Assembly (NCBI GenBank): GCA_024278555.1
Contig: JAJRSX010000189.1
Coordinates: 1-24,042 of the forward strand
Direction of reading: 5' to 3'
DNA from: a bacterium
GTDB lineage: Bacteria; CG2-30-53-67; CG2-30-70-394
Length of the DNA: 24,042 nucleotides
A model generated the notes under the pieces. It did no database searches. It was not told where the DNA came from and saw nothing but the letters and a program-made list of their open reading frames with translations. How positions within the stretch are numbered: position 1 is the first letter of the stretch; each line of letters begins with the position of its first letter. Below are positions 359-20,288 of the stretch, one piece after another. A program made the translations under genes and the position numbers.

Positions 359-360
359 CT
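315..360. repeat. Degenerate short repeat, AGCTGTTCGCTGAAA unit
   Basis: The unit AGCTGTTCGCTGAAA occurs at the right side of this stretch, and a longer variant with an inserted GTTCGCT precedes it. The repeat runs up to the last codon of the minus-strand cytochrome gene. Function unknown; it looks like intergenic repeat DNA. Confidence 0.5.
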
Positions 361-1534
361 ACTCCACCGCGCTCTCTGCCTCCGCGACCAGCTTCGGCCG
401 CGCCAGCTCCGCGGGCAGCCGATCGCCGAGCTTGGTGGCCATGGCCGGCGGCAGGAGGCGGTAGAGGAGGCGGGCGCGGACCCGGGCCACGGTCGGCGGC
501 ATCCGGTAGGTGATCTCGCGTACCTCCCCCGGGGTGAGGCGGTTATCGGCGGCGGTCCGCGTCGCCCGCGGCGGCGGTACCGGCCGTCCGGCATCGTCGG
601 TGAGACGGACCATCAGGTGGCCGTCCGGCCCGCGGCCTTTGCCGGGGCAGCTACGCCACACCTCGCGACCGGCGGTATCGAGGCCGACCACCTCCAGCAC
701 CCCCATGCGGAAGGGGGCGCCGGTGGGGAAGGCGTGGGCGACACGGGAGCGCAGGACCACCCGCGCCTCCACCCCGCCGCCGGCACGCCGCGCCTCCACC
801 TCCACGGTGGTGGCGCGGGCGACCATCGCCTCAGAGTGGCCGCCGAGCATCGAGTGGTCGGCGTGGCCGTCGCGCACCGCCATGTGGCAGGCCTGGCAAG
901 GTGCCGCACCGCCCCCGTCACGCACCTCATCGCCGGTACGGCAGACCGCGACCCCCTTCTTGTTCGTGTGGTGGCCGTGGCACCCGAGGCAAAACTCCGG
1001 CGAGGCGAGCCAGGCGCCGCGCCGCTCCATGGGGAAGCGGGCGGCGCCGCTGCCGCTGAACCGTGGCCCCTGGAGGCGATCGGTGGAGCAGGTGTAGCTG
1101 TGCACCCCACGGCTCTCCACCCCGGCAGTACGGCCGGTGAGGGTGTGGCAGGTGGTGCAGGTGACCCCATCGAGGTAGACCGGCTCGGCGTCGAGCTTGC
1201 TCGTCCCATCCAGGGCCGCGGCGACCACGTGACACGCCGGGCAATGGGGCGGCCCACCCCCCTGGGTGACCCCCTCCTGGGTAGGGTCGCCGACCATGCG
1301 GCGGTACATGGCGCCGTGGATCGGATCCTTCAGGGGGTTCGCCTGGGCGTGCATGGAGCCCTGCCACTCGCGGTAGATCTCCTCGTGGCAGGCGCCGCAC
1401 TCGGCCGCGGTGATGTGGTGCAGGGGCTGCTGCACCGACGCCTCTGTCGGCGTCGTCACCACCTCCGGTGCGGTGTGGCAGGCGGCGGCGGAGAGAAGAA
1501 GGAGGGCGGCGGTGGCGAGAAGGGCTTGGCGCAT
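359..1534 (-). CDS. Pentahaem cytochrome c family lipoprotein (c554-like)
   Basis: This 391-residue exported protein carries five CXXCH haem c motifs, at residues 46-50, 98-102, 126-130, 182-186 and 213-217. The N-terminus (MRQALLATAALLLLSAAAC) is a signal peptide with a plausible lipobox ending at Cys19, so it is probably a periplasm-facing lipoprotein. The spacing and the start (AAECGACHEEIYREW) resemble the cytochrome c554/multihaem family that carries electrons between membrane quinol oxidation and periplasmic acceptors. The last 150 residues lack haem motifs and contain AHAFPTG, a signature often seen in the C-terminal beta domain of such cytochromes. I chose the ATG at 1534 over the longer frame because it starts the signal peptide and has GGAG about 7 bases upstream. 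The partner and acceptor are unknown. It diverges from the cfa gene. Confidence 0.85.
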   Translation of the reverse strand: MRQALLATAALLLLSAAACHTAPEVVTTPTEASVQQPLHHITAAECGACHEEIYREWQGSMHAQANPLKDPIHGAMYRRMVGDPTQEGVTQGGGPPHCPACHVVAAALDGTSKLDAEPVYLDGVTCTTCHTLTGRTAGVESRGVHSYTCSTDRLQGPRFSGSGAARFPMERRGAWLASPEFCLGCHGHHTNKKGVAVCRTGDEVRDGGGAAPCQACHMAVRDGHADHSMLGGHSEAMVARATTVEVEARRAGGGVEARVVLRSRVAHAFPTGAPFRMGVLEVVGLDTAGREVWRSCPGKGRGPDGHLMVRLTDDAGRPVPPPRATRTAADNRLTPGEVREITYRMPPTVARVRARLLYRLLPPAMATKLGDRLPAELARPKLVAEAESAVE

Positions 1535-1664: not shown

Positions 1665-1800
1665 AATTGGGGTCAGGAATTGGGGTCAGGCTTGCAAACT
1701 TGCAAGTTTGAAATTGGGGTCAGGCTTGCAAACTTGCAAGTTTGCAAGCCTGACCCCAACTTCCCCAACTTCTGACCCAACTACAACTCTGACCAACTTC
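1665..1800. repeat. Nested palindromic array related to the RAYT element ends
   Basis: AATTGGGGTCAGG occurs three times, at 1665-1677, 1678-1690 and 1712-1724. A 33-base direct repeat occupies 1678-1710 and 1712-1744. Bases 1714-1759 form a 46-base perfect palindrome whose half contains GGGGTCAGGCTTGCAAACTT. To the right, decayed inverted heads (CTGACCC and CTGACC followed by AACT) continue to about 1800. The core motif GGGGTCAGGCTTGCAA is identical to both ends of the transposase element at 19261-20288. This is therefore a non-coding REPIN- or MITE-like relative probably mobilised in trans (inference). It lies in the divergent promoter region of the cytochrome and cfa genes. Confidence 0.85.
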
Positions 1801-1897: not shown

Positions 1898-3148
1898 ATG
1901 TTCTTGCTTGCCAACATGATGAAGCGCTTCGTCCAGGTGGGGACCCTGCGGGTGATCGACCCCAAGGGCCGCGAGCACCTCTTTCGCGGCCAGCCGGGGC
2001 CGGAGGTCGGCTTCCGCCTCACTGACCCGACCCTGCCCAGGCGCATCTTTTTCAACGCCGAGCTCGGCGTCGGCGAGGGGTACACCAATGGCACCTTCAT
2101 CCTGGAGGGGTGCGACCTGCACGACTTCTTCGCCTTCTACAGCGCCAACCAGGAGGCCCTGTGGCACTACCCCACCCAGTCGGCCCTGGCCCGCGTCTCC
2201 CGCCTCTTTCGCCGGGTGCAGCAGCATAACCCGGTGGGCAAGGCGCAGGAGCACGTCTCCCACCACTACGACATCTCCAACGACCTCTACCGCCTCTTCC
2301 TTGACGACGACCTCCAGTACTCGTGCGCCTACTTCCGCCGCCCGGAGGTGGGGCTGGAGGAGGCACAGCTCGACAAGAAGCGCCACCTCGCCGCCAAGCT
2401 CTGCCTGGAGCCGGGCCAGCGGGTCCTGGACATCGGTTGCGGCTGGGGCGGGATGGGGGTCTACCTAGCGCAGGTGGCGGGGGTGGAGGTGGTGGGGGTG
2501 ACCCTGTCCCACCAACAGCACCGCCTGGCGTGCGAACGGGCCGAGGAGGCGGGGGTGGCGGATCGCGTCCGCTTCGAGCTGATGGACTACCGGCTCCTGG
2601 AGGAGCGGTTCGACCGGATCGTCTCGGTGGGGATGTTCGAGCACGTGGGCACCGGCCGCTACCGGGAGTTCTTCTGCAAGGTGGCGAACCTCCTGGAGCG
2701 CGACGGGCTGGCCCTCCTCCACTCGATCGGCCACATGAGCCCGCCGTCGGTCGCCTCGCCGTGGCTGCGGCGCTACATCTTCCCCGGCGCCTACTCGCCG
2801 TCGCTCTCCGAGGTCTTGCCGGCGGTCGAGGAGAACCGCCTGTGGGTGCTGGACGTGGAGATCCTCCGCACCCACTACGCCGACACTCTACGCCACTGGT
2901 ACGAGCGCCTCACCGCCCACCGCGACGAGGTGGTGGCGATGCACGACGAGCGCTTCTTTCGCATGTGGGAGTTCTACCTGGTGAGCTGCGAGAATATGTT
3001 CCGCAACGGCGCCCAGATGGTCTTCCAGATGCAGCTCGCCCACCGCCGCGACGCCGCGCCGCTCACCCGTGACTACATCGGCGAGGCCGAGGCGCGGCTG
3101 GTCGAGCGGGAGGCGGAGCTCACCACAAGGGAGCCGGTTCCCCGGTAG
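1898..3148 (+). CDS. cfa: Cyclopropane-fatty-acyl-phospholipid synthase family methyltransferase
   Basis: This 416-residue protein would transfer a methylene group from S-adenosylmethionine to the double bond of membrane phospholipid acyl chains. It acts at the inner face of the cytoplasmic membrane. The SAM-binding motif VLDIGCGWGG is at about residues 177-186, followed by VTLSHQQ (201-207) and the family signature SVGMFEHVG (243-251). HHYDISNDLYRLFLD (122-136) is a typical Cfa segment. Cys364 in LVSCENMFRNG matches the active-site cysteine region. The length is close to the usual 380-420 residues. The ATG at 1898 is preferred to an upstream TTG because a purine-rich GGAGAGAGGAGAGA precedes it and the family N-terminus begins there. 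Upstream lies the palindromic array; downstream lie the palindromes at 3190-3538. It could instead be a related fatty-acid methyltransferase acting on the same substrates. Confidence 0.92.
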   Translation: MFLLANMMKRFVQVGTLRVIDPKGREHLFRGQPGPEVGFRLTDPTLPRRIFFNAELGVGEGYTNGTFILEGCDLHDFFAFYSANQEALWHYPTQSALARVSRLFRRVQQHNPVGKAQEHVSHHYDISNDLYRLFLDDDLQYSCAYFRRPEVGLEEAQLDKKRHLAAKLCLEPGQRVLDIGCGWGGMGVYLAQVAGVEVVGVTLSHQQHRLACERAEEAGVADRVRFELMDYRLLEERFDRIVSVGMFEHVGTGRYREFFCKVANLLERDGLALLHSIGHMSPPSVASPWLRRYIFPGAYSPSLSEVLPAVEENRLWVLDVEILRTHYADTLRHWYERLTAHRDEVVAMHDERFFRMWEFYLVSCENMFRNGAQMVFQMQLAHRRDAAPLTRDYIGEAEARLVEREAELTTREPVPR

Positions 3149-19260: not shown

Positions 19261-20288
19261 TGGGGTCAGGCTTGCAAACTTGCAACTTCGTCGCAAAGTA
19301 TCTTTTGTAACTGGTGTAATCGATCGACCAGGGTAGCGTCGGTGTCGGCCCGAACACGAAGCCGACGGAGGGCCGACGAAACGCTGCTCTCATCGCGACG
19401 CAGCACCCTTCCCACCTCCCGCAGGGTTGCGTCGCACGACTCCATACCAAGCCAAGCGACCACCGCCCGCGCCTCCGCGAGCCGCCGCGCCTGCCCCCTT
19501 CCGGACAAGGCACCCTCGTCGACCTGATACTCCTCGCACACCACCGTCACCGCTCGCTCCAACGGCACCGGCAACCTCTCCGGCCGCACATCGGCCCCGA
19601 GCACCGACTGCAAAAAGTCGTCATCCCCGAGGCATCGCGAATCATCCCCCCCGTGGTGAAAATCAGTCCGCCGGCCCTCCCCCACCCCTTGGGCGACAAA
19701 CCGCGCATAACGCCGCCGCGCCGGACCCACCCGCTTCCCGAACTGGCCAAGCACCCATTCCGTGGTCAGCCAAGAGAGCTGCTCCTTCCCCATGTAGGCG
19801 CTCTGCCCACTCCACGGGTAATCAACCGCATCCTCCACCAGCCTCGCTCGCACCGGGTTCAGATGGATGTAGCGCACCAACTCCAGCAGGTAGCTGTCGC
19901 GATCCACCAAGATCGCCTTGTACCGGCCCTGGAAGAGGTGGCCCACACGACCTTGCAGCCGATTCACCCGTCGTGTGTAGCGGAAGGTAACATTCTGCAT
20001 CGCACGCGAAAGCGGCACCTCCCCCACCTGCACCACCAGGTGGAGGTGGTTCGGCATGCAGCAAAACGCGTGCACCCGATAACCGAACCGCTCATGCCCC
20101 TCCTCCAACAACCCATAGAGATGACGGTAGTCCCCCTCCGAAAAAAAGATCCTCCCACCGCCGTTGCCACGCAGCATCACGTGGTACACCCCGCCCGGCA
20201 CATGGATCCGTGGTTTACGTGCCATCTGTAGCTCCCTTTTAAAACAAGAGATTTGGTACTATCTTACCAACTTGCAAGCCTGACCCCA
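19261..20288 (-). mobile_element. RAYT element with inverted terminal motifs
   Basis: TGGGGTCAGGCTTGCAA at 19261-19277 is the exact reverse complement of 20272-20288, and the pair closely flanks the transposase gene. The left copy continues as ACTTGCAA, like the orphan palindromic array at 1665-1800. No target-site duplication is apparent, as expected for HUH/Y1 transposition. I infer that these ends are recognised by the encoded enzyme and that the array at 1.7 kb is a non-autonomous relative. Confidence 0.8.
19266..20225 (-). CDS. REP-associated tyrosine transposase (RAYT, Y1_Tnp family)
   Basis: This 319-residue protein has a Y1/HUH nuclease domain: IHVPGGVYHVMLRGN at 7-21, the metal-binding HUH motif in MPNHLHLVV (57-65; His60, His62), FQGRYKAILVD (98-108), and the likely catalytic tyrosine Tyr119 in LVRYIHLNPVRA. 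A C-terminal DnaA-like helix-turn-helix region (about 240-292, with LREVGRVLRRDESSVSSALRRLR) is typical of the longer RAYT group. The enzyme would cut and join single-stranded DNA at palindromic REP sequences. The ATG at 20225 has AGGGAG 6 bases upstream. The last codons (ASLQA and TGA) lie inside the left terminal repeat, so the repeat is partly coding here. Confidence 0.92.
   Translation of the reverse strand: MARKPRIHVPGGVYHVMLRGNGGGRIFFSEGDYRHLYGLLEEGHERFGYRVHAFCCMPNHLHLVVQVGEVPLSRAMQNVTFRYTRRVNRLQGRVGHLFQGRYKAILVDRDSYLLELVRYIHLNPVRARLVEDAVDYPWSGQSAYMGKEQLSWLTTEWVLGQFGKRVGPARRRYARFVAQGVGEGRRTDFHHGGDDSRCLGDDDFLQSVLGADVRPERLPVPLERAVTVVCEEYQVDEGALSGRGQARRLAEARAVVAWLGMESCDATLREVGRVLRRDESSVSSALRRLRVRADTDATLVDRLHQLQKILCDEVASLQA

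Follow-up and report, generated by a model that had tools for sequence, protein, structure and literature searches.

The array lies in the spacer between two divergent genes, a cytochrome c554-like gene (positions 359-1534, minus strand) and a CMAS/cfa-type gene (1898-3148, plus strand), as stated in the original prediction; positions refer to the window, i.e. the whole stretch of 24,042 nt that was analysed. At its centre is a perfect palindrome of 46 bp, found exactly at the predicted coordinates (1714-1759), which is the longest in the window and has a chance expectation of about 3e-10 per 24-kb window. It comprises an intact fused element of 42 bp (1716-1757) with its TT/AA flank, and the predicted DNA fold of this fused form is a hairpin of 19 uninterrupted base pairs (-23.7 kcal/mol, z -9.0). 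The additional heads reported beside the palindrome are present as well. Two of them lie to its left, a head of 9 nt at 1669-1677 and, closer to the palindrome, a half element of 29 nt at 1682-1710; both are plus-strand rungs of what we call a ladder. The outermost rung (1663-1681) consists of GGAATT, the truncated head GGGGTCA (1669-1675) and a repeat of GGAATT, the duplicated unit being GGAATTGGGGTCA. The second rung is the half element itself, GGGGTCAGGCTTGCAAACTTGCAAGTTTG, recognised by sequence match and fold, which forms a single short REP-like hairpin with GGGGTCAG as an unpaired 5' foot; it is joined to the intact element by AAATT (1711-1715, plus strand), a re-copied flank. The right-hand ladder (1758-1799, minus strand) is decayed and reads AACTT, CCCCAACTT, CTGACCCAACT, ACAACT and CTGACCAACTT, with the three decayed head copies spread across 1763-1799.

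The window also contains a gene (19266-20225, minus strand) for a TIRYT/RAYT-type transposase of 319 amino acids, with a Y1_Tnp domain (3.5e-11) and a C-terminal Bac_DnaA_C domain (residues 226-288, 1.1e-9). Its score against the NCBIfam model REP_Tyr_transpos, 78.1 bits, is slightly below the cut-off of 80. One inverted terminal repeat, flanked by CTCT, overlaps the stop codon at the 3' end of the gene (19262-19285, plus strand), and the other lies upstream of the gene (20270-20287, minus strand). Both ends start with GGGGTCAG, which fits the GGGGWSAS consensus of the TIRYT class (PMC3733652). The 16-mer GGGGTCAGGCTTGCAA occurs without mismatch five times in the window (0.26 expected), namely at 1682, 1716 and 1742 (minus) in the array and at 19262 and 20272 (minus) at the transposase ends. 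The identity of the palindrome core with both ends of the transposase element, and its descent from them, are thus supported.

Because it combines Y1_Tnp and Bac_DnaA_C domains with flanking inverted repeats of the GGGGWSAS type, the transposase is a TIRYT, a known kind of enzyme. All traits of this class were found: an HUH/Y1 enzyme of RAYT type, GGGGWSAS ends, the Bac_DnaA_C extension and dispersed TIR repeats. With REPINs of the GTAG type the element shares inverted pairs and hairpins, but its foot is GGGGTCAG and there is no GTAG. By its fused DnaA-like domain, the transposase fits subclass 2.1.2 of the TnpA-Y1 enzymes in the available text of Quentin et al. 2018 (PMC6006769). The same text describes subclass 2.1 genes as having no REP-like sequences nearby. 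TIR families are moderately abundant in some species according to the accessible part of Di Nocera et al. 2013 (PMC3733652), so that the dispersed family found here is also of a known kind.

This family is spread through the genome to which the window belongs, an assembly of 3.06 Mb in 211 contigs. There, about 31 sites carry GGGGTCAGGCTTGCAA, with 55 exact copies and a further 5 near matches, compared with 1 for the reversed pattern. The palindrome had been called an orphan, a label that does not hold in view of these copies and of a cognate gene at a distance of 17.5 kb. Besides single heads, the copies form about 21 inverted pairs whose heads point outward. A typical element has a length of 83 bp and reads GGGGTCAGGCTTG-CAAACTTGCAAGTTTG-25 nt-CAAACTTGCAAGTTTG-CAAGCCTGACCCC; when elements are oriented by this spacer, CTCT flanks one side and AATT the opposite side in most cases. 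The 42-bp core in the window is exactly this element minus 41 bp (one 16-bp CAAACTTGCAAGTTTG and the 25-nt spacer), the deletion lying between two internal 16-bp direct repeats. By its sequence, the palindrome therefore corresponds to two inverted ends of the transposase element fused through a 41-bp internal deletion. The fused form also occurs in contigs C24 and C147, and a fourth case, in C56, is interrupted by the contig end. We regard the palindrome as a putative non-autonomous, REPIN/MITE-like mobile element of the transposase encoded at 19266-20225, which is likely to be the cognate enzyme of the family.

Other elements accompany this family. Eight single-headed copies share a 50-nt tail starting with ATATCACGCACAACGCTCTGAAAGCAGGCTCGCAAGAA and lack a second head; they form a separate element type with the same head. 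Two more transposase genes (C27 and C185) have their own heads, and elements with matching heads are dispersed in the genome. A fourth Y1 transposase gene (C70) lies between inverted repeats like AAAAAGGGGACAGG/CCTGTCCCCTTTTT, which have yet another GGGGWSAS-like head. No direct repeat was seen by eye around ladder-free elements, so target-site duplication around whole elements was rejected. Insertion into pre-existing palindromes was rejected for the window element, as inverted outer flanks of at least 6 nt were found in only 1 of 19 elements of its family (0.8 after shuffling). For the other head families of this genome, such flanks were found in 7 of 11 elements (1.4 after shuffling). Five elements with other heads (C15, C19, C57, C104 and C171) are centred in inverted flank repeats of 6-10 bp, and their flanks, when joined, give a palindromic site, which may reflect either target choice or flank copying.

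Ladders like that in the window are found throughout its genome, in the sole other genome of the genus (the genus mate) and also in unrelated genomes, where they occur at transposase ends. The 60 nt outward of 51 family ends contained 30 additional GGGGTCA motifs (0.24 expected), every one of them oriented like the end beside it and none the opposite way. The pattern GGGGTCA-N1-30-GGGGTCA occurred 76 times in the window's genome and 34 times in the genus mate, against 2 matches of the reversed control in each. Outside the genus, both ends of a transposase gene carry ladders in two unrelated genomes. At least 5 flank bases were identical in 74 of 116 pairs of adjacent heads within a locus, while 2000 between-locus shuffles gave a mean of 4.4 and a maximum of 12. 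As the flank is locus-specific, each clean rung must have arisen after insertion, as a local tandem copy of flank and truncated head. On the evidence of these repeats, we conclude that the flanking heads are local tandem duplications of a locus-specific flank of 4-12 nt and a truncated head. In the window family, only 1 of 13 CTCT-flanked ends was laddered, compared with 19 of 38 other ends (P 0.008, post hoc).

The joints between rungs were analysed in a strict set of 47 rungs from 34 loci. Breakpoints cluster at GGGGTCA/G: in 26 of the 47 rungs the head breaks off after 7-8 nt (GGGGTCA or GGGGTCAG), that is, at the hairpin foot. The copied flank, 4-12 nt long, starts with CA in 20 of the 47 (7.3 expected), a number not reached in any of 5000 random draws (P<1/5000). 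The restart at CA recurs outside the genus, in 7 of 15 strict rungs (2.2 expected, P 0.0008). Microhomology is absent at 24 of the 47 joints, which weakens microhomology slippage as the sole cause.

Two genomes of the same class (G006 and G004) gave more than 200 and about 40 GGGGTCA-pair matches, respectively, mostly 8-bp tandem GGGGTCAA arrays beside AGGATTCCAGGGGTCA; these very abundant arrays are of a different type.

Comparison with the genus mate bears on the age of the array. Its transposases are 62-64% identical to that of the window, and one locus ends in GGGGTCAGTCCTGCAA, of which 29 dispersed copies were found at up to 2 mismatches, whereas the window 16-mer GGGGTCAGGCTTGCAA is absent from its genome. 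Head and transposase thus co-vary between the two genomes, in this one comparison. The cytochrome and cfa genes are kept adjacent and divergent in the genus mate, and their 345-bp spacer contains no palindrome and no array, only a single TGACCCC that is compatible with chance. The array is therefore not fixed in the genus, and of the two outcomes that would have counted against the original prediction, absence of the motif elsewhere and an array fixed in relatives, neither was seen. The two spacers are too divergent to place an exact empty site. From this single comparison, we infer that the element reached the spacer once the lineage had separated from that of the genus mate, the only one sequenced. 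No consensus sigma-70-like promoter or terminator was found within 1500-1950, and the suggestion that the array regulates the cytochrome and cfa promoters is unsupported. We found no evidence of promoter control, and the array is presumably selfish DNA.

The explanation that we favour, with a probability of about 0.6, is that a selfish, TIRYT-derived REPIN/MITE-like element acquired its ladder locally after insertion, by transposase-assisted joining. Once the element had inserted, a short stretch of flank and the first bases of the element were copied again in tandem, each event adding a rung. In the proposed mechanism, replication would stall at the foot of the element hairpin with its 3' end at GGGGTCA(G). 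The single-stranded flank would be cut by the HUH transposase 5' of a CA dinucleotide, and the joining of the stalled 3' end to the cut flank end would add one rung. A 3' end stalled in this place together with a flank cut before CA would yield exactly the joint that is observed, and the asymmetry of the ends, with CTCT spared and AATT laddered, fits a strand-specific enzyme. Against an enzyme, the junctions read GGGGTCA/CA, so that no one simple rule is common to both cuts. Both the mobility of the element and the action of the enzyme are inferred. According to the available text of PMC8266576, the HUH transposases of this superfamily cleave single-stranded DNA next to a hairpin, hold the 5' end on a tyrosine and can hand it over to a free 3'-OH; the TnpAREP studied cuts at CT and CA, 5' and 3' of the hairpin, and transfers strands to a free 3'-OH in vitro. 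No activity of a TIRYT-type transposase, in vitro or in vivo, is reported in the available text of the papers covered. The wider idea that TIRYT transposases themselves build ladders in many bacterial lineages, by cutting the flank at CA and joining it to stalled ends, is put forward tentatively. If true, each locus would preserve traces from which earlier activity of the enzyme can be read.

The main rival, which we consider less likely although the sequence is compatible with both, is that the ladders arose without a transposase, by ordinary replication slippage or template switching at the strong hairpin of the same mobile element. Such a process would agree with breakpoints located at the hairpin foot and with the seven near-identical 11-nt rungs in C147, which are typical of secondary slippage. 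In C30 and C31, the flank of one end is found inverted inside the ladder of the other end, which is natural for enzyme-free template switching at a hairpin. Slippage does not readily account for the half of the strict junctions that lack microhomology, for the preference for CA at the restart, or for the sparing of CTCT ends although both palindrome ends are alike. The original prediction attributed the layered layout to heads that inserted repeatedly, side by side, a reading that would here involve whole or partial elements. Some rungs are indeed nearly complete half elements of 29-31 nt (1682-1710 in the window, C30 and C104), but each clean rung carries local flank and is always oriented as the adjacent end, and unique flank would not be copied by independent insertions. 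IS200/IS605-type insertion produces no target duplication. Repeated insertion is therefore improbable, and the extra heads argue instead for local tandem duplication after one insertion.

The least probable reading, to which we give very little weight, is that the ladders are artefacts of a fragmented, metagenome-type assembly. The assembly does consist of 211 contigs, with several elements at contig ends. At the start of one contig (C88:25-68) lies a collapsed element, GGGGTCATGACCCC, whose ladders mirror each other perfectly and whose flank is mirrored over at least 20 nt, and near the end of another (G001:C84:3541-3682) lies an element bordered on either side by flank that is perfectly inverted over about 50 bp; both may be fold-backs. 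Ladders are, however, also found inside contigs, their rungs are unequal and carry unique flank, and the same junction rule recurs in unrelated genomes. The ladders also have a wider meaning: they are sequence footprints with definite breakpoints (GGGGTCA/G, restart at CA, one end spared), which lead to predictions about cleavage and strand transfer and bear on how repeats are spread by RAYT-like enzymes. They also show amplification in place of short flanking DNA beside a mobile hairpin.

A literature query with the head sequence GGGGTCAGG yielded no obviously relevant paper, and no published description of such ladders was found in the open-access literature, subscription papers lying outside this coverage. 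As far as the available text describes them, the TIRtrons (TIRYT; PMC3733652, PMC6006769) have in common with our system a RAYT-like HUH gene, GGGGWSAS inverted repeats (GGGGTCAG here) and a Bac_DnaA_C or HTH C-terminus, as well as TIR repeats that are scattered singly, as dimers and in groups (PMC3733652). Ladders of truncated heads with copied flank are not described in the accessible parts of PMC3733652 or PMC6006769. Also different from TIRtrons, as far as these are described there, are a defined family of 83-bp dimers that includes a fused form of 42 bp, a lineage-specific head and asymmetric CTCT/AATT ends.

Two other repeat systems are close to ours. REPIN-RAYT systems with GTAG REPs were reportedly described by Bertels and Rainey in 2011. 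In the available text of Corneloup 2021 (PMC8266576), such REPtrons resemble our family in that inverted pairs of hairpin units co-vary with one transposase gene and an unpaired 5' foot adjoins the hairpin; here, however, the foot is GGGGTCAG without GTAG, and the ends and C-terminus of the transposase place it in the TIRYT branch. Clusters of GTAG repeats with flanking DNA are noted in the accessible part of PMC3733652, and BIME-2 and other tandem REP clusters share with our ladders the local tandem amplification that includes flanking DNA. The single rungs found here differ in that they are not whole units: they break off 7-8 nt into the head and restart at CA. The new part is thus the ladder with its junction rule, while the element itself belongs to a known kind.
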